A stretch of 64,000 bases of DNA, taken from a bacterium (lineage in GTDB: Bacteria; Patescibacteriota; Microgenomatia; UBA1406; GWC2-37-13). The position numbers and the translations under genes are program-made. The first letter of the stretch is position 1. The number at the start of each line of letters is the position of its first letter. The notes below the pieces were generated by a model. The model searched no databases and had not been told where the DNA came from. It saw nothing but the letters and a program-made list of their open reading frames with translations. Below, in pieces: positions 43,087 to 52,026 of this stretch. The stretch is from NCBI GenBank assembly GCA_021796235.1, contig JAJYOJ010000005.1, forward strand, positions 1-64,000, written 5' to 3'.

Positions 43087-43842
43087 TTATTTGCTTTTTT
43101 TATCGTAATAATGAAGAATATTTTTTCTATAATAAATCGCCAGTGTATCTATAAATATACCGGCTATTGATCTTAGTGTAGCCGCGGAGGTGATGGAGCT
43201 TAGATTGAAATCGAGTTTAATAGGCGCTTCATAAATTCTGTTAAAGCCAAAACTTTCCGCGGCCACCAACATTTCCAAATCTCCAGCAAATTTTTTTTCT
43301 AAGAGGACTGGTAAAATTTTCTCCAGCACTTTTTTTCTAAAGACTTTTATCCCGGCTTGCGTATCGTGTATTCTTAAACCAAAAAGTAATTTAACAAGAA
43401 AGTAATATCCATCGCTTAGTATTTTTCGCTGGAGCGGGTAATTGACTTTAGACGCTAAGTGACGCTTTGAACCAACGATAATATCTGCATCATACCATTC
43501 CATATGTTCGAGTAACATGGATATACCATTTGGATCAATTTCAAGGCCCGAATCAAGAAACATAACATAACTTCCAATCGCCTCCTTCATACCTATCTGT
43601 ATTGCATGGGCTTTACCTTGATTTTTTAGGTAACCGATATGCTTTACTTTTTCGATCCGGGCTGCCTTAATTTTTCGGAGCGATTTGTCATGAATTCCAT
43701 CAACAACTGTTATGATTTCATAATCATAGCGAATTTTATCAAGCACTTTTTTAATTTGCTGAAGGTTTTTTACAATCGTTTTTTCCTGTTTATAAACAGG
43801 AATAATTAGGCTTAAAAAATATTTAAGTTGTTTTTCTTTCAT
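43087..43842 (-). CDS. GT2 polyprenyl-phosphate sugar synthase-like (DPM1-like)
   Basis: A 251-residue protein with LSLIIPVYKQEKTIVKNLQQI, ITVVDGIHDKS, KNQGKAHAIQIGMKEA, MFLDSGLEID (DXD position is DSG, a weaker version), and DTQAGIKVFRKKVL. The last is the DPM/GtrB hallmark. There is no C-terminal membrane domain. It probably makes a polyprenyl-phosphate sugar for the GT-C enzymes. It overlaps the flippase gene by 20 bp. Confidence 0.82.
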   Translation of the reverse strand: MKEKQLKYFLSLIIPVYKQEKTIVKNLQQIKKVLDKIRYDYEIITVVDGIHDKSLRKIKAARIEKVKHIGYLKNQGKAHAIQIGMKEAIGSYVMFLDSGLEIDPNGISMLLEHMEWYDADIIVGSKRHLASKVNYPLQRKILSDGYYFLVKLLFGLRIHDTQAGIKVFRKKVLEKILPVLLEKKFAGDLEMLVAAESFGFNRIYEAPIKLDFNLSSITSAATLRSIAGIFIDTLAIYYRKNILHYYDKKSK

Positions 43843-45097
43843 TGGTTGATATTATAGCAGCAAAGAAAAGGGAGAATATTAGAATTAATGAAGAGAAAAT
43901 AAGATCTATATTAACTACCATATCGATCGTTTTTCCCCAGAAAAAAAGTCCAAGCCCGTAGAAAGGAATAATAATAAGACTTGTTAAGGATGCCGGAGAG
44001 TGTTTGGCAATAAAATAATTATTTAGAATAATAATTAGGCTGTAAAGCAGCCCAAATAAGGCCGCTCGCGGAAGAAGACTCAAAATTTCGAAATAGCGGC
44101 TATTAAATATTAGACTTAAGACAAATTTACCAAAAAAAGTGTAGGTTAGGAAAAAAATAAGCCCGCCAAGCAGAAAAACTCCAATGCTTATGGCAAGGCT
44201 TTTTCTATGATTTTTAGACTGGTCGCGGTCTGCAAAAAAAATATAAGCGAGAGAAATAATAGGCCCGAAAATGTAAAAGATAATTTTGCCGTAGAGACTC
44301 CAGGCTCCATAAACACCGGCAATATTAGCTGTAAAAAATTTTTTAACGTACATTATATCCAGATTATTAAGAAGATTTAAGGCTATAAGCGAGAGACTCA
44401 TTATAAGAAGTTGTTTAGTAAATACGAGTTTTATAACCTGTGTTTTAAAACTTTTGATCCGAGTCGCAGCTTTCGAAAAAATTTTATCTAAAAGAAATTT
44501 TCCAAAAACAAATGAACTTAAGGCGGAAAATATCAACATTATCCCAATTGTTGAAATTCCGTCGATATGAAAATAAACAAGAACCGGACCAAAGAGTTTT
44601 ATCAGAACCGGTGCCAGTGCAAGGACTGAATACCAAAAAAATTCGTGAATTCCTTGCAGGGAAGTTAGGTAAAAGGTTGACATCAGTGAGGCCAAAAGAA
44701 CCATTAAAAGAACAAATGAAAAAAGCAGAGATAGATTGGTAAGATTAGGAAGAATTAAAATTAACAAGAAATAGGGTATTGCTAAAAATTTCCATTTTTT
44801 TACTTCTGTCGTAAGCCAAAACTCCCATTCGCGTAGAACGATTATTCTTTTTTCGCCTTTTTGGCCAAGCCTTCGAATAAGCTCATAGGAAGCAATCTGG
44901 ATAGGTATAGAAAAAATTGTTAAATAAGCGGAATAAGCCGCGATTTCTCCGTAGCCAACCGGACCAAGTAGTTTACCGCTTAAAGAATTGAAAAGATAGT
45001 TTAAAAATCCGCCAATAAAGTTGCTGACTGTAAAAAAAAAGCCACCCCGAAAAAATTTGTTATTTAATAAATTTTTAATTTTTGTACTTGCATCCAT
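43823..45097 (-). CDS. Oligosaccharide flippase (Wzx-like)
   Basis: A third MOP-superfamily protein, 424 residues and about 12 helices. FFTVSNFIGGFLNYLFNSLSG is the conserved first helix, cut here; then KLLGPVGYGEIAAY and LASLMSTFYLTSLQGIHEFF. Substrate would be a lipid-linked oligosaccharide. Expressed leftwards with two GT2 genes. Its first codons overlap the -35 box (45088-45093) of the forward metK riboswitch promoter, so the two units compete at this site. Confidence 0.85.
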   Translation of the reverse strand: MDASTKIKNLLNNKFFRGGFFFTVSNFIGGFLNYLFNSLSGKLLGPVGYGEIAAYSAYLTIFSIPIQIASYELIRRLGQKGEKRIIVLREWEFWLTTEVKKWKFLAIPYFLLILILPNLTNLSLLFSFVLLMVLLASLMSTFYLTSLQGIHEFFWYSVLALAPVLIKLFGPVLVYFHIDGISTIGIMLIFSALSSFVFGKFLLDKIFSKAATRIKSFKTQVIKLVFTKQLLIMSLSLIALNLLNNLDIMYVKKFFTANIAGVYGAWSLYGKIIFYIFGPIISLAYIFFADRDQSKNHRKSLAISIGVFLLGGLIFFLTYTFFGKFVLSLIFNSRYFEILSLLPRAALFGLLYSLIIILNNYFIAKHSPASLTSLIIIPFYGLGLFFWGKTIDMVVNIDLIFSSLILIFSLFFAAIISTNERKTT

Positions 45098-45116
45098 TTT
45101 ATTAGTATGTTATCAT
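45088..45116 (+). promoter_or_regulatory. Promoter of the SAM riboswitch/metK operon
   Basis: TTGCAT (45088-45093), exactly 17 bp, then extended TGtTATCAT (hexamer 45111-45116). Predicted +1 is 45123, the first bases of the riboswitch P1 stem. Confidence 0.7.
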
Positions 45117-45121
45117 AAAAA

Positions 45122-45235
45122 ATATTATTAAGAGAGATAGGTGAAGGGAACTGGCCCAATTTGGCCTATCCAGCAACCGATTCCGATTAATCGGAACACG
45201 GTGCTAAATCCAGCCCGAAAAGGGAAAGATGAGAT
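45122..45235 (+). ncRNA. SAM-I (S-box) riboswitch
   Basis: The conserved S-box core is readable in order: AAGAGAG then GGTGAAGGGAACTGGCCC, CCAGCAACC, a P3 hairpin (CCGAT/ATCGG), CGGTGCTAAATCC, a P4 hairpin (CCCGAAAAGGG) and AAAGATGAG. P1 would pair 45122-45129 with 45228-45235 (one mismatch, two G-U). It binds SAM in known members and ends transcription when SAM is high. Location ahead of metK, and a terminator 30 nt downstream, agree with this. Confidence 0.9.
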
Positions 45236-45252
45236 CCCGCCGAAGGCGGGAT
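45233..45252 (+). promoter_or_regulatory. Hairpin between aptamer and terminator, possible switch element
   Basis: ATCCCGCC (45234-45241) and GGCGGGAT (45245-45252) form a perfect stem with loop GAA. Its right arm GGCGGGAT can pair instead with ATCCTCCC (45262-45269), the left arm of the terminator, with one mismatch, a plausible antiterminator. Confidence 0.5.
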
Positions 45253-45263
45253 AAAAATATCAT

Positions 45264-45286
45264 CCTCCCACACGGGAGGTTTTTTT
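45264..45286 (+). terminator. Riboswitch-controlled intrinsic terminator
   Basis: Stem CCTCCC (45264-45269), loop ACAC, GGGAGG (45274-45279), then seven T. It lies between the aptamer and the first gene. Confidence 0.85.
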
Positions 45287-45308
45287 ATAAGTTTTATAAT
45301 TAATACTT

Positions 45309-45518
45309 ATGAACAGTGTTGATTATGCTCACGATAAATGTCCAGGTTCAGCAACTGGTAGAACAATTTTCAGGGTCTTAAGTGGTAACGCGCCAAAATG
45401 TCCGGCTTGCGGCGCATATCTTGAAGTCAAACCAATGACTTTCGAAGGATCTACAGGGAAACCTAACGATCGGGGATGGTTTTCTCATTTTAGAGGCAGA
45501 AACAGAGAAAGAGTTTAA
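45309..45518 (+). CDS. Small zinc-ribbon-like protein, 69 aa
   Basis: A 69-residue protein with CPGSATGRTIF near the start and a CPACGAYLEV knuckle (CxxC at ~34-37), plus an earlier single Cys, so it may bind one zinc ion. The C-terminus is basic (HFRGRNRERV). There is no family name. It is the first gene after the SAM riboswitch and terminator, 14 bp before metK, so it is SAM-regulated. A TATAAT at 45295-45300 could also start a near-leaderless transcript here, bypassing the riboswitch. Confidence 0.55.
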   Translation: MNSVDYAHDKCPGSATGRTIFRVLSGNAPKCPACGAYLEVKPMTFEGSTGKPNDRGWFSHFRGRNRERV

Positions 45519-45532
45519 TTTATTTTTATATT

Positions 45533-46639
45533 ATGTCAAATACTTTTACTTCCGAATCAGTGTGCGCCGGGCATCCCGATAAAATTTGCGATCAGGTTTC
45601 CGACGCCATAGTTGACGCAGCTCTTAAAAAGGATAAATATTCGAGGGTCGCCGTCGAAACAATGGTCACAAAAAACTTTATTGCAATGGCGGGCGAAGTG
45701 ACAACTAAAGGAAAAATTAACTATCAAAAAATTGCCCGGGACGTAATAAAAAAATTAGGCTATACGAAAAAAGAATTAGATTTTACTTACAATGCACCCA
45801 TGACGATAAAAATTCACACTCAATCTGCTGAGATTGCAGTCGGAGTTGACGCTCAAGGAGCTGGAGATCAAGGCATGATGTATGGTTATGCCTGCGAGGA
45901 AACTAAATCGCTGATGCCCCTTCCCATCTCAATTGCCCATCGCCTGGCGGAAAGAGTTGACGAGGTCCGTGAAAAAAAACTTTTAACTTATCTTAGGCCT
46001 GATGGAAAAACGCAAGCAACTGTAACTTATGACCGCAATAGACCAGTTAGCGTCGAAGAAATTGTTTTGGCAATCCCCCACTTTGAAAATATGAAAATAA
46101 GAGACGTAAAAGAGGATTTGTATAAAATTGTAGTTGTACCGGTTCTTAGAGAGTTTGGTTTTAAAATTGCTGAGTCTGATGTTATTGTTAATGGTACGGG
46201 TGTTTGGCATTTTGGTGGGCCGGCCGCCGACACAGGTGTTACCGGAAGAAAAATCGTTGTCGATACCTATGGTGGAATGGCCAGAGTTGGCGGTGGCGCA
46301 TTTTCCGGCAAAGATCCCACCAAAGTTGATCGATCGGGAGCGTATGCGGCCCGATTCTTAGCTAAAAATATTGTTGCGAATAAATTGGCAAGTCGATGTG
46401 AGGTAAGACTTGCCTATTTTATAGGTGCAAAAAAACCAATTATGCAGGAAGTAGAAACGTTTGGCACAGAGAAAAAAAGCAAAAAGCTCATCAATGACTT
46501 TATGGAAAAAATTCTTGATACCTCAGTCTCAGGAATTTTGGAAGGCTTAAATCTTAGAAGACCTATCTATTTAAAAACAGCCGCCTACGGTCATTTTGGA
46601 CGTGACAACTTTCCTTGGGAAAAGATTGTAAAGCTATGA
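45533..46639 (+). CDS. metK: S-adenosylmethionine synthetase
   Basis: A 368-residue enzyme making SAM from methionine and ATP. Visible motifs: SVCAGHPDKICDQVSDAI, the hexapeptide-type GAGDQGMMYGYA, FVIGGP-type region (WHFGGPAADTGVTGRK), and DTYGGMARVGGGAFSGKDP with the P-loop-like glycines, then KVDRSGAY. It is slightly shorter than the usual 380-400. It is controlled by the upstream S-box and overlaps the PfkB kinase by 4 bp (ATGA). The product feeds the methyltransferases and radical SAM protein of the neighbouring glycan cluster. Confidence 0.96.
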   Translation: MSNTFTSESVCAGHPDKICDQVSDAIVDAALKKDKYSRVAVETMVTKNFIAMAGEVTTKGKINYQKIARDVIKKLGYTKKELDFTYNAPMTIKIHTQSAEIAVGVDAQGAGDQGMMYGYACEETKSLMPLPISIAHRLAERVDEVREKKLLTYLRPDGKTQATVTYDRNRPVSVEEIVLAIPHFENMKIRDVKEDLYKIVVVPVLREFGFKIAESDVIVNGTGVWHFGGPAADTGVTGRKIVVDTYGGMARVGGGAFSGKDPTKVDRSGAYAARFLAKNIVANKLASRCEVRLAYFIGAKKPIMQEVETFGTEKKSKKLINDFMEKILDTSVSGILEGLNLRRPIYLKTAAYGHFGRDNFPWEKIVKL

Positions 46640-47586
46640 TGCTTAATTATCGCTATGATTCTGCAGTTATAGTCGGAGCGATTGCCTACGACGAAATCAT
46701 GGATTTTCCGGGTAAGTTTGTTGACTATCTCGATCCAAAAAAGCTTCACCAGATCAATGTTTCGTTCGTTGTGGATCGTCTAGAAAAACAGTTAGGGGGC
46801 GTTGCTACCAATATTGCTTATAATCTTTCACTTTTGACCACAAAAAAAATTAGCATCGTAGGAGCGGTAGGAAAAGACGGAAAACAGTTTATTCATTTTT
46901 TTAAAAAAAATAACATTAACACAGAAAATTTAATAACAGATAAAAATCTATACACTTCAACCGGAAAAGTCATTACGGACAATCTAGATAACCAAATTTG
47001 GGGATTTTATTACGGAGCAAGCGGAAGCGCCAAAAAAATACAGCTTACCAAAACAATTAATCAGAGTTCACTTTTTGTCCTTACCGCTACTCACCCCGAT
47101 GTTTTCCTAAAGTTTCAAAATCAACTTAGCAAATCTGGAAGAGATTTTTTATATGATCCAGGTATGGTTTTGACCTGGATAGATAATAAAGATTTGAGAC
47201 AAGGAGTAAAAAACTGCCGCTGGCTGGTTGGCAATGATTATGAAATAGGAATGATTTTGAAAAGATTAAGTACGACGGTTAAGGAATTAACAAAAAGTTT
47301 TAACTTACGAATTATTACAACCTTAGGAGAAAAAGGCGTCATTTATGAGGCAAAGTCAGAGAGATATAGAATCAAAAGTTATAAAGTCAAAAAAATTGTC
47401 GATCCAACCGGAGCCGGTGACGCCTGGCGGGGCGGTTTCACAGCCGGAATTTTAGAAGGTAAGTCTATTGCCGAGTCACTTCGGCTCGGAAATGCCTTGG
47501 CTAGTTTTGCAATTGAAAATTACGGAACCGTAAATCATCGGCCGAATAAAAAAGATATTTATAAAAGGTTCCAGACTTTGCTATAA
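46636..47586 (+). CDS. PfkB-family kinase, probable adenosine kinase
   Basis: A ribokinase-like protein of 316 residues. VIVGAIAYDEIMDFPGKF is the N-terminal substrate loop, GGVATNIAYNLSLL follows, and DPTGAGDAWRGGFTAGIL is the PfkB signature with the catalytic Asp. The family includes ribo-, fructo-, inosine and adenosine kinases. Its position between metK and ahcY argues for adenosine as substrate, since AhcY releases adenosine. The start at 46636 shares ATGA with the metK stop; a second ATG follows at 46639. No direct evidence for substrate. Confidence 0.82.
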   Translation: MMLNYRYDSAVIVGAIAYDEIMDFPGKFVDYLDPKKLHQINVSFVVDRLEKQLGGVATNIAYNLSLLTTKKISIVGAVGKDGKQFIHFFKKNNINTENLITDKNLYTSTGKVITDNLDNQIWGFYYGASGSAKKIQLTKTINQSSLFVLTATHPDVFLKFQNQLSKSGRDFLYDPGMVLTWIDNKDLRQGVKNCRWLVGNDYEIGMILKRLSTTVKELTKSFNLRIITTLGEKGVIYEAKSERYRIKSYKVKKIVDPTGAGDAWRGGFTAGILEGKSIAESLRLGNALASFAIENYGTVNHRPNKKDIYKRFQTLL

Positions 47587-47598: not shown

Positions 47599-48858
47599 AT
47601 GTCTATTAAATATGATGTTAAAGATCTTTCACTTGCAGAGGAAGGAAAAAAACTAATTCTTTGGGCGAAGCGAGACATGCCCGTGCTTCAACTCATCCGT
47701 GCGAGATTTAAAAAAACTAAATTTTTAAAAGGAGTCAGATTGGCAGCCTGTTTACATGTAACATCCGAAACCGCCAACTTAGTAATTACACTAAAAGAAG
47801 GAGGCGCCGAAGTTTTTTTATGCGCCAGCAATCCTTTATCAACAAATGACAAAGTGGCTGCTTCGCTGGTTAAAAATTATTCCATCCCAGTTTTTGCAAT
47901 TAAAGGGGAAGACACAAAAGTTTATTATTCACATTTAAATTCAGTTCTTGATGCTGAACCAAACCTTACAATGGACGACGGAGCCGATTTAGTAAGTTTA
48001 ATTCATAAAAAGCGCCAGGAATTAATAAAAAACGTCTTTGGTTCAACTGAAGAAACAACCACAGGTGTCATACGGCTAAGAGCAATGGAAAAAGACAGTT
48101 CCTTAAAAATTCCTGTTATCGCAGTAAATGACAATTTAACCAAACATTTATTTGATAATCGATACGGTACCGGCCAATCGACTATTGATGGAATTTTACG
48201 CTCAACCAATATTCTGCTTGCCGGTAAAACTTTTGTTGTTTGCGGTTATGGTTGGTGCGGTAGAGGGGTAGCCATGCGGGCGCGTGGAATGGGAGCGCGC
48301 GTAATCGTTTGCGAAGTTGACCCGATAAAAGCTCTTGAAGCAAAAATGGACGGGTATGAAGTTATGCAACTTGTCACCGCCATAAAAACTGCAGATATTG
48401 TTTTGTCTACAACCGGAGATAAACATGTCATCGACACGGAAGATTTTAAAGCCGCTAAAGATGGTGTAATCCTGGCCAATTCAGGACATTTTGATGTCGA
48501 AATTAACAAGGAGGCTTTGGGTAAGTTAGCTAAAAAAGTTAGAAAAATACGGCCAATGGTTGATGAATATGATCTGGGAAACAAAAAAATATATTTATTA
48601 GCAGAAGGCAGACTAGTTAATCTGTCAGCTGCAGACGGGCACCCTGCTTCAGTCATGGACATGAGTTTTTCCGGACAAGCTTTAGCCGCTGAGTATGTTT
48701 GGAAAAATAAAAAAAATCTTGAAAATCGTGTCTATTCTTTACCCTATGCAATAGATGAACAAATAGCTAAAATGAAACTTAGAAGCGAAAATGTGAATAT
48801 CGATAGTTTGACAAAAGAGCAAAAAAAATACTTAACTTCCTGGCAAGAAGGGACCTAA
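47599..48858 (+). CDS. ahcY: Adenosylhomocysteinase
   Basis: A 419-residue NAD-dependent enzyme that splits S-adenosylhomocysteine into adenosine and homocysteine, removing the product inhibitor of methyltransferases. Seen: [55 protein letters not shown] (substrate), [15 protein letters not shown], and NAD motif [18 protein letters not shown]. The length and missing C-terminal insert resemble the archaeal/Thermotoga type. It sits with metK and a PfkB kinase, giving most of a SAM cycle, and has its own -10 box. Confidence 0.95.
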
Positions 48859-48859
48859 T

Positions 48860-50284
48860 ATGGATAAACTTACTAAAATTATAGCGACTATTGGTCCAGC
48901 CTGTAATAGTGAGGAGACTATAGCCGGTTTAATTTCTGCCGGGGTTGACGTTTTTCGCTTCAATTTTAAACACAATACCCCAAAATGGCATAATGATCAG
49001 ATCTTGTTGGTTAACCGTGTAGCTAAAAAATTGGACAAACATGTGGGTACCCTTATTGATCTCCAGGGACCTGAAATCAGGATAAATATGCCAACCGAAG
49101 AAATTAAGATTTTTAAGGATGAAGTTTTACTTTTTGGCGAGGAGGCATTCAATTCAAAACAAAAAGGCTTTTCAATCTCGAGCCCGCAAATAATTTCCAA
49201 TATTAAAGTCGGGCAAAGAATTGTCGCGGACGACGGAAATTTTAATTTCAGTTTTGAAAAACAGCACGACAAGTATTATTTACGCTCAAACTCTCAAGGT
49301 ATTTTAAAAAATCGTAAATCCCTAAATATTCCCGGGGCCGACTTTCCTTTTCCAGTTTTAATCAGCCGAGATTTTCAAGCTTTGGAAATCGCTCAAAGAA
49401 ATCAGATCGATTTTGTTGCACTCTCATTCGTCAGAACCGAAGAAGATATACAAATGCTCCGGCGAGAAATGAAAAAATATAATCTTCAAGCAAAAGTTAT
49501 AGCCAAAATTGAGACAAAGAAAGTATTTGATCATCTCGATAAAATAATCGCTTTGAGCGACGGAATAATGGTGGCGCGTGGCGACATGGGAGTTGAACTA
49601 CCTGTTGAGGAAGTCCCTTACTATCAAAAATTAATAATTAAACAAACAATCAAAAGAGGTATTCCAGTTATTACGGCAACTCAAATGCTTCAATCAATGA
49701 CTGAAAACCCGGTGCCAACCCGGGCGGAAGTTTCCGACATCGCCAATGCAACCTATGATCTAACCGATGCCATAATGCTTTCGGCAGAAACAGCCATCGG
49801 AAAGTATCCGATAGAGGCAGTTGACATAATGCGAAAAACCGCTTCTTTTAATGAACAAAAAAACCAAGTCGACAGCCGGGTAAGATTTCAGTTTGAAGTT
49901 AACGACACGCGAAGCGTTATTTGTGACGCAGCCTATGGAATTTATATGATACTGAAGAATCAGAAGAAGCAAATAGCCGGATTTTTAGTGTTTACGGAAA
50001 GTGGGAAAACCGCTCAATTGGTCTCACGCTACAGGCCGTTAGCGCCGATTTTTGCGCTAGCCCCAAACAAAAAAGTTGCCGACTCACTTACCTTGAGTTT
50101 TGGAGTATTACCGTTTGATCGTACTCTAATTTTCAAAAAAATAAGCAAAAAAGATGAAATAGTAAAAACTATAAACTTCCTTTTACAAAAAAAACTGATC
50201 AAAAGGAGTCAAATTCTTATCGCTCTGTTTGGGGATTTTGGTAAAAAAGGAAATACTTCATCCCTAAGGATAATTGAAATATGA
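48860..50284 (+). CDS. pyk: Pyruvate kinase
   Basis: A 474-residue enzyme making pyruvate and ATP from phosphoenolpyruvate and ADP, the last step of glycolysis. Motifs: TKIIATIGPACNSEET, FNFKHN (usually FSH), LIDLQGPEIR, AKIETKKVFDHLDKI with the catalytic Lys, VARGDMGVELPVEEVP, and TATQMLQSMTENPVPTRAEVSD. The C-terminal regulatory domain (~350-474) is present. It starts 1 bp after ahcY, and GAAGGGA lies about 7 bp before the ATG. It overlaps lepA by 4 bp. Confidence 0.95.
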   Translation: MDKLTKIIATIGPACNSEETIAGLISAGVDVFRFNFKHNTPKWHNDQILLVNRVAKKLDKHVGTLIDLQGPEIRINMPTEEIKIFKDEVLLFGEEAFNSKQKGFSISSPQIISNIKVGQRIVADDGNFNFSFEKQHDKYYLRSNSQGILKNRKSLNIPGADFPFPVLISRDFQALEIAQRNQIDFVALSFVRTEEDIQMLRREMKKYNLQAKVIAKIETKKVFDHLDKIIALSDGIMVARGDMGVELPVEEVPYYQKLIIKQTIKRGIPVITATQMLQSMTENPVPTRAEVSDIANATYDLTDAIMLSAETAIGKYPIEAVDIMRKTASFNEQKNQVDSRVRFQFEVNDTRSVICDAAYGIYMILKNQKKQIAGFLVFTESGKTAQLVSRYRPLAPIFALAPNKKVADSLTLSFGVLPFDRTLIFKKISKKDEIVKTINFLLQKKLIKRSQILIALFGDFGKKGNTSSLRIIEI

Positions 50285-52026
50285 AAGAATTTACCAAAAT
50301 AAGAAATTTTGCAATCATTGCTCATGTTGACCACGGAAAATCAACTTTAGCCGATAGATTGTTGGAACTGACCGGCGTAGTTAAACCAGGTCATCACGCC
50401 GAACAACTCTTGGACAGGAATCCAATATCAAGAGAGAGAGGGATAACGATTAAGTTGGCGCCGGTTCGCATGGAATATAGAATTAGTAATTTAGAATCAT
50501 TAATTTTAAATTTAATTGACACGCCCGGACATGTGGATTTTTCCTATGAAGTAGACCGAACCTTAGCTTGTGTAGAAGGGGTGATTCTTTTGGTTGATGC
50601 AACGCAAGGCGTCCAGGCGCAGACAATTTCGAATGCGTATAAAGCCTTAGCTAAAAATCTAACCATAATTCCGGCAATCAATAAAATTGACCTAGCCGGA
50701 GCAGACCCGGAAAAAACCTCTGGAGAACTTGTTGATTTTTTAGGGATAAATAAGAGTGAAATTTTTAAAATATCAGCTAAAACTGGCGCAGGCGTTTCAA
50801 CTTTATTAAATACTATCATTAAAAAAATTCCTCCACCCAATAGTTCCCTACAAATAACTGGAGTCCAGGCGTTAATTTTTGACTCTTATTATGATTCGCA
50901 TCGCGGGGTTATAGCATTTGTCCGGGTTTTTTCTGGTTCCTTGAAAAAACAGACAAAAATCCGATTGTCTGCAACTTCTGAGTCGTTTGAAATTAAGGAG
51001 GTCGGGTATTTTGTTCCCGAGCTTTCGCCCACAGAAGAAATTTTTCCGGGAGAAATTGGATATGTCGTAACCAACCTTAAGGACATTCGTCAAGTACGAG
51101 TTGGCGATACAATGCTTGATCAAGCGTCGCGCGCCTTTGTATTGTCTGGTTATAAAAAAGTTCACTCGATGGTATATGCTTCTGTTTTCCCAACTGATAC
51201 GAACGATTATCTCAATTTAAAAAAAGCTCTGGAAAAGTTATATTTGAACGATTCATCATTAGAGTTTCAGGGGATCCATAGTCAAGCTTTGGGAGCGGGT
51301 TTTCGAGTCGGATTTCTGGGACTTCTTCATGCCGATGTTGTGAGAGAACGACTTGAGCGCGAATTTGGGTTAGATCTGGTTCTAACACCGCCCCAAGTAG
51401 ACTATGAACAAGACGAATCTGGGTTCAAAGAACCATATATAAAGATTTTTATTATTACTCCCCAAAAATATTCAGGCCCCGTAATGCAACTTTTAGAGCA
51501 TTACAGAAGCCGTTTTGTTACTATGGATAATAAAAATCAGATAACACTGACTTACGAAATGCCCTTGAGCGAAATGATTTCTGATTTTTTTGACCGTTTA
51601 AAAAGTGTTAGCTCGGGATACGCTTCTTTAGACTGGGAAGTATTACGATATGAACATGTCTTAGCCGATAAATTGACTCTCCTTTTAAATGACGAGCCGG
51701 TCGAGGAGTTTTCTGAGATAGTTGTTGAAGAACGAGCCTATGAGAAGGCTCAGCAATTAGTTTCAAAATTAAAAGAGTTTATTCCCCGCCAGCAATACGA
51801 AGTCAAGATTCAAGCGAAATATAAAGGAAAAATTATTGCCTCCTCGCGAGTTGCTCCGTTTAGAAAAGACGTGCTTGTTAAAAGCGGAAAGGTTCTTGGT
51901 TCTGGAGATGTTGGGCGGAAAAAGAAACTTTTAGAGAGGCAAAAAGAAGGAAAAAAACGAATGAAAATGATCGGAAAAGTCGAAATCCCCAAAGAAGCCT
52001 TTGTCAGACTCTTTAAGAGAGGTTAG
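50281..52026 (+). CDS. lepA: Elongation factor 4 (LepA)
   Basis: The translational GTPase LepA, 581 residues, which acts on stalled or mis-translocated ribosomes. G1 AHVDHGKSTLADRLL, G2 RERGITIK, G3 DTPGHVDFSYEV, G4 NKIDL; the LepA-specific C-terminal domain ends VEIPKEAFVRLFKRG after the basic RKKKLLERQKEGKKRMK. AAGGA lies 10 bp before the ATG. Last gene of the forward block; its end meets the convergent repeat protein with a 9-bp gap. Confidence 0.97.
   Translation: MKEFTKIRNFAIIAHVDHGKSTLADRLLELTGVVKPGHHAEQLLDRNPISRERGITIKLAPVRMEYRISNLESLILNLIDTPGHVDFSYEVDRTLACVEGVILLVDATQGVQAQTISNAYKALAKNLTIIPAINKIDLAGADPEKTSGELVDFLGINKSEIFKISAKTGAGVSTLLNTIIKKIPPPNSSLQITGVQALIFDSYYDSHRGVIAFVRVFSGSLKKQTKIRLSATSESFEIKEVGYFVPELSPTEEIFPGEIGYVVTNLKDIRQVRVGDTMLDQASRAFVLSGYKKVHSMVYASVFPTDTNDYLNLKKALEKLYLNDSSLEFQGIHSQALGAGFRVGFLGLLHADVVRERLEREFGLDLVLTPPQVDYEQDESGFKEPYIKIFIITPQKYSGPVMQLLEHYRSRFVTMDNKNQITLTYEMPLSEMISDFFDRLKSVSSGYASLDWEVLRYEHVLADKLTLLLNDEPVEEFSEIVVEERAYEKAQQLVSKLKEFIPRQQYEVKIQAKYKGKIIASSRVAPFRKDVLVKSGKVLGSGDVGRKKKLLERQKEGKKRMKMIGKVEIPKEAFVRLFKRG

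Follow-up and report, generated by a model that had tools for sequence, protein, structure and literature searches.

A SAM-I-type riboswitch that probably controls a metK operon by transcription termination in a Microgenomates bacterium, and its variable relatives

The metK operon in the window, i.e. the whole stretch of 64,000 nucleotides analyzed here, is preceded by an RNA that is very probably a SAM-I-type riboswitch turning off its own operon by premature transcription termination. Judged by its sequence, the RNA at 45122-45235 is almost certainly an aptamer of the SAM riboswitch clan; binding of SAM, the direction of control (OFF at high SAM) and the extent of the operon are predicted on the same grounds. 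The elements of the leader are as follows.

45088-45116, plus strand: candidate promoter read from the sequence, with a -35 element TTGCAT (45088-45093), 17 nt and an extended -10 element TG-T-TATCAT (TG at 45108-45109, -10 at 45111-45116)
45122-45235, plus strand: predicted SAM-I (S-box) riboswitch aptamer (RF00162, 43.8 bits, E = 3.7e-9 genome-wide, single match)
45122-45129, plus strand: 5' strand of P1, pairing with 45228-45235 (Rfam alignment and pair listing)
45130-45134, plus strand: core AAGAG (sequence)
45136-45170, plus strand: P2, made up of P2a, a joint and P2b
45136-45141 and 45165-45170, plus strand: P2a, GAUAGG/CCUAUC (pair listing)
45146-45148 and 45155-45157, plus strand: P2b, GGG/CCC, with loop AACUGG
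45151-45154, plus strand: 5' half of PK-1, CUGG in the P2 loop, pairing with CCAG at 45210-45213
45171-45178, plus strand: predicted SAM-binding core CAGCAACC (CAAC at 45174-45177; pocket positions according to PMC6890682)
45177-45201, plus strand: P3 hairpin (Rfam alignment, fold)
45200-45213, plus strand: GGUGC core (GGTGC at 45200-45204, UGC at 45202-45204) and J3/4 with the 3' half of PK-1 (45210-45213)
45214-45224, plus strand: P4, CCC-GAAAA-GGG, 3 bp (Rfam alignment, fold)
45222-45269, plus strand: predicted antiterminator, GGGA-aa-GAUGA (45222-45232) with UCAUC-c-UCCC (45260-45269) (MFE, pairing statistics)
45228-45235, plus strand: 3' strand of P1, GAUGAGAU, competing with the antiterminator
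45234-45252, plus strand: intervening hairpin AUCCCGCC-GAA-GGCGGGAU, directly 3' of P1 in a P5-like position
45264-45286, plus strand: intrinsic terminator CCUCCC-ACAC-GGGAGG followed by U7 (sequence, terminator scan)

The SAM-I model RF00162 aligns with this RNA over its full length (1-108) at 43.8 bits, with E = 5e-9 in an E-value scan of 45050-45350 (301 nt) and E = 3.7e-9 as the sole match in the 922-kb genome. The original prediction had named an S-box core in its usual order, and AAGAG, CAGCAACC and GGTGC are all found, as are the P3 hairpin and the short P4 that it described. It had also proposed a score above the gathering level as confirmation, and this was narrowly missed, the RNA lying 0.6 bits below the 44.4 bits set for RF00162. 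The gathering score is a curation cut-off and not a structural feature; despite the shortfall, chance is excluded as the source of the match because of its E-value. At gathering level, Rfam accordingly lists just two tRNAs across the window, and the riboswitch appears only with an E-value threshold. The leader also folds unusually well (z = -5.6), none of 200 shuffles doing so to the same degree.

The SAM-I core set AAGAG, CAAC, UGC and GAUGAG occurs in order, helices P1-P4 surround a four-way junction, and PK-1 (CUGG:CCAG) connects the P2 loop with J3/4. When the nucleotides lying within 5 Å of SAM in the SAM-I structure (list from PMC6890682; sequence from PMC5393176) are traced in the window, A6, U7, G11, A12, CAAC and UGC are all present in SAM-I terms, the only change being C8 to U, a residue that forms the terminal wobble pair of P1. 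P1 itself is weak, seven of its eight positions pairing, two of them as G-U, with one A-G mismatch. The assignment to the SAM-I class is supported by the core, PK-1 and P1-P4, but the internal joint of P2 departs from the SAM-I kink-turn. The two strands of this joint, UGAA and AAUUUGG, form no kink-turn G-A pairs; they can be drawn as an internal loop, or else UGAA:UUUG can be paired to give a bulged, almost uninterrupted helix. A standard kink-turn requires G-A on its bulged strand (PMC4316175, PMC5061560); the 3' strand of P2, CCC-AAUUUGG-CC, has no G1b-A2b, so that the canonical kink-turn (G-A, A-G) is not formed. In the SAM-I RNA of T. tengcongensis, SAM binding is lost when the kink-turn carries the mutation A1nC; an engineered replacement, the pk-turn, retains binding (PMC5061560), and because of this a missing kink-turn does not exclude SAM-I membership. 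Its absence probably accounts for the near-miss score.

What would such an aptamer act upon? The predicted terminator, a 6-bp stem followed by seven T residues, was verified at 45264-45286, and it is complemented by an antiterminator that the original prediction did not describe and that cannot form together with P1, P4 or the terminator. Its upstream arm, GGGAaaGAUGA, is composed of the 3' strands of P4 and P1, such that P1 and the antiterminator compete for the same bases, and its downstream arm, UCAUCcUCCC (45260-45269), contains the 5' arm of the terminator. The duplex, at -11.7 kcal/mol, is matched by only 0.25% of shuffled arms (0.0025) and by 1.9% of shuffled aptamer ends. It is the MFE structure of transcripts that stop before the 3' arm of the terminator (e.g. 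at 45275), and when folding of the growing transcript is followed, its pair probability reaches up to 0.92 at an RNA end of 45275 and is 0.05 after the terminator 3' arm has been made. Without ligand, the full-length RNA folds in favor of the terminator (-63.5 vs -59.5 kcal/mol); because the terminator already prevails in this thermodynamic fold, antitermination has to be kinetic. The platform for control by transcription termination that had been proposed is supported, and by analogy the arrangement of P1, antiterminator and terminator is that of known S-box OFF switches.

At low SAM, the nascent RNA would thus pair GGGAaaGAUGA with UCAUCcUCCC and sequester the 5' arm of the terminator, and RNA polymerase would read into a small ORF, metK, a kinase gene and ahcY, perhaps also pyk and lepA. 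At high SAM, binding of the ligand would close P1 around the four-way core, GAUGA would no longer be free, the CCUCCC-GGGAGG-U7 terminator would form, and transcription would end near 45286. The points that speak against this reading are the sub-gathering score, the P2 without a kink-turn, the weak P1, and the terminator winning the ligand-free fold. A further such point is a set-wide antiterminator test across the leaders from the Candidate Phyla Radiation (CPR), which gave 13.75 vs 12.64 in swapped controls (maximum 13.53), only slightly above them; the statistics barely exceed the control because a GGAAAGAU/UCUUUCC theme is common to all members.

The promoter fared less well. TTGCAT-N17-TGtTATCAT is there as originally described, but the -35 element matches TTGACA at only three of six positions, the promoter scanner does not list the pair, and shuffled upstream DNA equals the best promoter score of the locus 12% of the time, i.e. 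the single locus is no better than chance and the promoter was rejected as independent evidence here on account of the scanner miss and the shuffles. The set of 18 related leaders does support a promoter, its mean score being 8.8 vs 6.9 in shuffles, and several of these leaders have clear TTGACA-N17-TATATT-like pairs.

The surrounding genes are arranged as follows.

43823-45097, minus strand: multi-pass membrane ORF of 424 aa, flippase-like by reading, without a Pfam or NCBIfam match
45309-45518, plus strand: 69-aa ORF with one CPxC motif and no family match, between the terminator and metK
45533-46639, plus strand: metK, methionine adenosyltransferase (Pfam; TIGR01034, 476 bits)
46636-47586, plus strand: PfkB-family kinase (Pfam), possibly an adenosine kinase; NCBIfam gives no assignment
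47599-48858, plus strand: ahcY, S-adenosylhomocysteine hydrolase (TIGR00936, 634 bits)
48860-50284, plus strand: pyruvate kinase (Pfam), 1 nt after ahcY
50281-52026, plus strand: lepA-like GTPase ORF, assigned by reading, overlapping the pyruvate kinase stop and last of the run

The metK operon of the original prediction is borne out by the 476-bit TIGR01034 match and by the order metK-kinase-ahcY downstream of the aptamer; from the 69-aa ORF to the lepA-like ORF, neighbors overlap or are separated by gaps of at most 15 nt. The 69-aa ORF, which the original prediction did not mention, was rejected as a conserved part of the system: it has no family match, and a search of 362 genomes returned one weak match of 47% identity that carries a stop, the ORF not being conserved at this place. 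An unrelated small ORF occupies the same place in the related leader L176. The start codon of the divergent membrane ORF lies inside the promoter region of the riboswitch.

Which member of the SAM clan the aptamer belongs to deserves closer consideration, given that SAM-I, SAM-I/IV and SAM-IV share a common pocket and differ in their outer parts (PMC6890682). With SAM-I (RF00162) the window shares the four-way core, the pocket nucleotides, P1-P4, PK-1, the terminator/antiterminator platform and metK as target; what sets it apart is the UGAA/AAUUUGG joint, the weak P1, an extra hairpin between P1 and the terminator, and the score just under gathering. From SAM-IV (RF00634), with which it has in common the pocket, PK-1 and a P2a/P2b split by a non-kink-turn joint, it differs in having P4, which SAM-IV is without, and in having no PK-2. 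A SAM-I/IV aptamer (RF01725, structure 4L81) would have the same pocket, but its P2 would be free of an internal loop, P5 would follow as a hairpin, and the P3 loop would form a second pseudoknot with the 3' tail; SAM-I/IV variants of this kind, with no loop inside P2, were at first gathered chiefly from metagenomes (PMC2864571). The hairpin right after P1, where P5 would sit, and the absence of a canonical kink-turn fit this class, and in the same bacterial family, two metK-associated relatives score above its cut-off (L188, 45.9 bits; L186, 43.4 bits). The best model for the window is nevertheless SAM-I, its P4 is short and SAM-I-like, its P2 probably keeps an internal joint, together with PK-1, and inspection finds no complement to the P3 loop UUAA between 45253 and the terminator, hence no recognizable PK-2. 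SAM-I/IV was rejected for the window, since RF01725 has no match at E <= 0.001 in its own genome, and we consider this class unlikely here.

Could the element instead be a decayed S-box, no longer responsive to SAM, leaving a constitutive terminator (or terminator/antiterminator) before metK? Its sub-threshold score, weak P1 and missing kink-turn would be expected of such a relic, and loss does happen, as seven of the 25 readable metK leaders in the family are without any aptamer. The intact core and PK-1, an antiterminator complementarity better than chance, and relatives with even odder P2 joints that keep both the core and a covarying PK-1 make decay quite improbable. Even less credence can be given to S-adenosylhomocysteine or another SAM derivative as the ligand, which the presence of ahcY two genes downstream of metK, the first enzyme gene, might bring to mind: in fold and pocket the RNA belongs with the SAM-I clan and not with the SAH riboswitch family, no SAH family appeared in Rfam scans of the window, the same aptamer in CPR genomes usually stands ahead of metK, and an SAH-driven OFF switch on ahcY would be counterproductive.

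The SAM-I-type riboswitch favored here is real but not unusual in its phylum. Among the 380 genomes that represent the phylum here, 84 have an RF00162 match (E <= 0.001), about one in five, and 59 of these exceed the cut-off; metK lies just downstream of 76 of the 94 oriented CPR matches, and the window is no exception. Within the window's family, 9 of 72 genomes have a match (four over the cut-off) and 31 of 72 have metK; in over half of the family's genomes SAM synthesis may thus be missing, and SAM would have to be imported. Among the 25 readable metK leaders of the family, 18 have the core motifs in order by reading, of which RF00162 detects six and RF01725 seven, 12 together. A recognizable terminator is found in about 38 of 106 leaders, and in the family in only five metK leaders (the window, L176, L177, L188 and L194), L194 having the same platform design as the window. 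In terminator-less metK leaders of the family, the gene begins no more than a few dozen nucleotides from the aptamer, a spacing suggestive of start-codon masking.

The P2 joint varies widely among the relatives. In 100 parsed CPR aptamers, a kink-turn of the NNNGA form was assigned to 58 and a recurrent CGYUA joint to 10, the rest being plain hairpins or others, although these counts are approximate as the automatic classes are rough, with 23 'other' and some leaders mis-parsed (e.g. L020, L150, L186). Five metK leaders (L163, L166, L170, L183, L188) have an intact S-box core and a P2 reduced to a plain short hairpin without a kink-turn and mostly without PK-1, and relatives with stranger joints than the window's retain the core and a covarying PK-1. 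The two halves of PK-1 are complementary in 88 of 99 parsed CPR aptamers, vs a mean of 55 (maximum 64) with partners swapped between sequences, and the pairings are diverse (CUGG:CCAG, CUAG:CUAG, UUGG:CCAA, UCGG:CCGA, ACGG:CCGU). It is conceivable, if somewhat doubtful, that the metK riboswitch of the family forms a continuum from SAM-I to SAM-I/IV, in which the pocket is kept, the P2 joint is freely swapped, and moves between transcription termination and start-codon masking have been repeated; the window would then be a natural, working SAM-I aptamer without a kink-turn. Under this tentative reading, the swapped forms of P2 would include the kink-turn, the recurrent GYUA joint, three-way junctions, plain hairpins without PK-1 and possible PK-2-like contacts.

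A few members of the wider set occur in other surroundings. In genome G388 of the same class, the SAM-I riboswitch L167 stands ahead of a gene for a Cys/Met PLP-dependent enzyme (PF01053, E 3e-21) rather than metK, the first ORF beginning 59 nt past the aptamer end. L002 and L003 (genomes G005 and G034; RF00162, 73 and 71 bits) stand away from metK, ahead of a protein of about 135 aa (MSIQDSINKGVFYGF...) with no Pfam match, whose function may be related to SAM or methionine. In two genomes of the window's family, FMN riboswitches (RF00050) lie just downstream of metK, at L176:2637-2761 (plus strand, 98 bits) and L177:1345-1468 (minus strand, 95 bits), followed, by reading, by an EamA-like transporter ORF and a RibF/riboflavin-kinase-like ORF in L176 and by an ECF substrate-specific component and an ECF ATPase in L177. 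With the Rfam model then available, an early survey had detected no riboswitch of the FMN class in Parcubacteria (PMC4508563).

The proposed Microgenomates (CPR) host is supported: the genome is of 0.92 Mb and 96% complete, small genomes occur in the same phylum, and the closest named metK genes are from CPR lineages, namely Ca. Daviesbacteria (67% and 65%), Woesebacteria, Levyibacteriota and Shapirobacteria. A family-by-family search of this 96% complete genome found no MetE C-domain (PF01717), PF02574 methyltransferase or MetQ lipoprotein (PF03180), whereas the controls for these tests gave positives in between 7 and 10 of the 14 reference genomes. Because PF01717 and PF02574 were not found, neither route seems available for turning the homocysteine from AhcY back into methionine, and methionine is presumably imported. 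The genome is thus compatible with the imported methionine of the original prediction, but no importer was found in it; dependence on imported methionine is plausible, and the switch might then report the host methionine supply.

The literature searched, which covered only a minority of subscription papers, contained no paper on SAM riboswitches in Patescibacteria/CPR, and CPR members may already be listed in Rfam itself. What is new is modest, i.e. the frequency of these RNAs in CPR, the number of family versions missed by Rfam models, and the lability of P2. Ultrasmall, pathway-poor bacteria very probably retain classic metabolite sensing for SAM synthesis, and commonly so in this phylum; where methionine synthase is absent, the switch would read imported methionine together with SAM. 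Many such RNAs are missed by standard models, as the joint yield of RF00162 and RF01725 in the family illustrates, and the leader set lends itself, as a natural collection, to the question of which outer parts a SAM-I fold requires.
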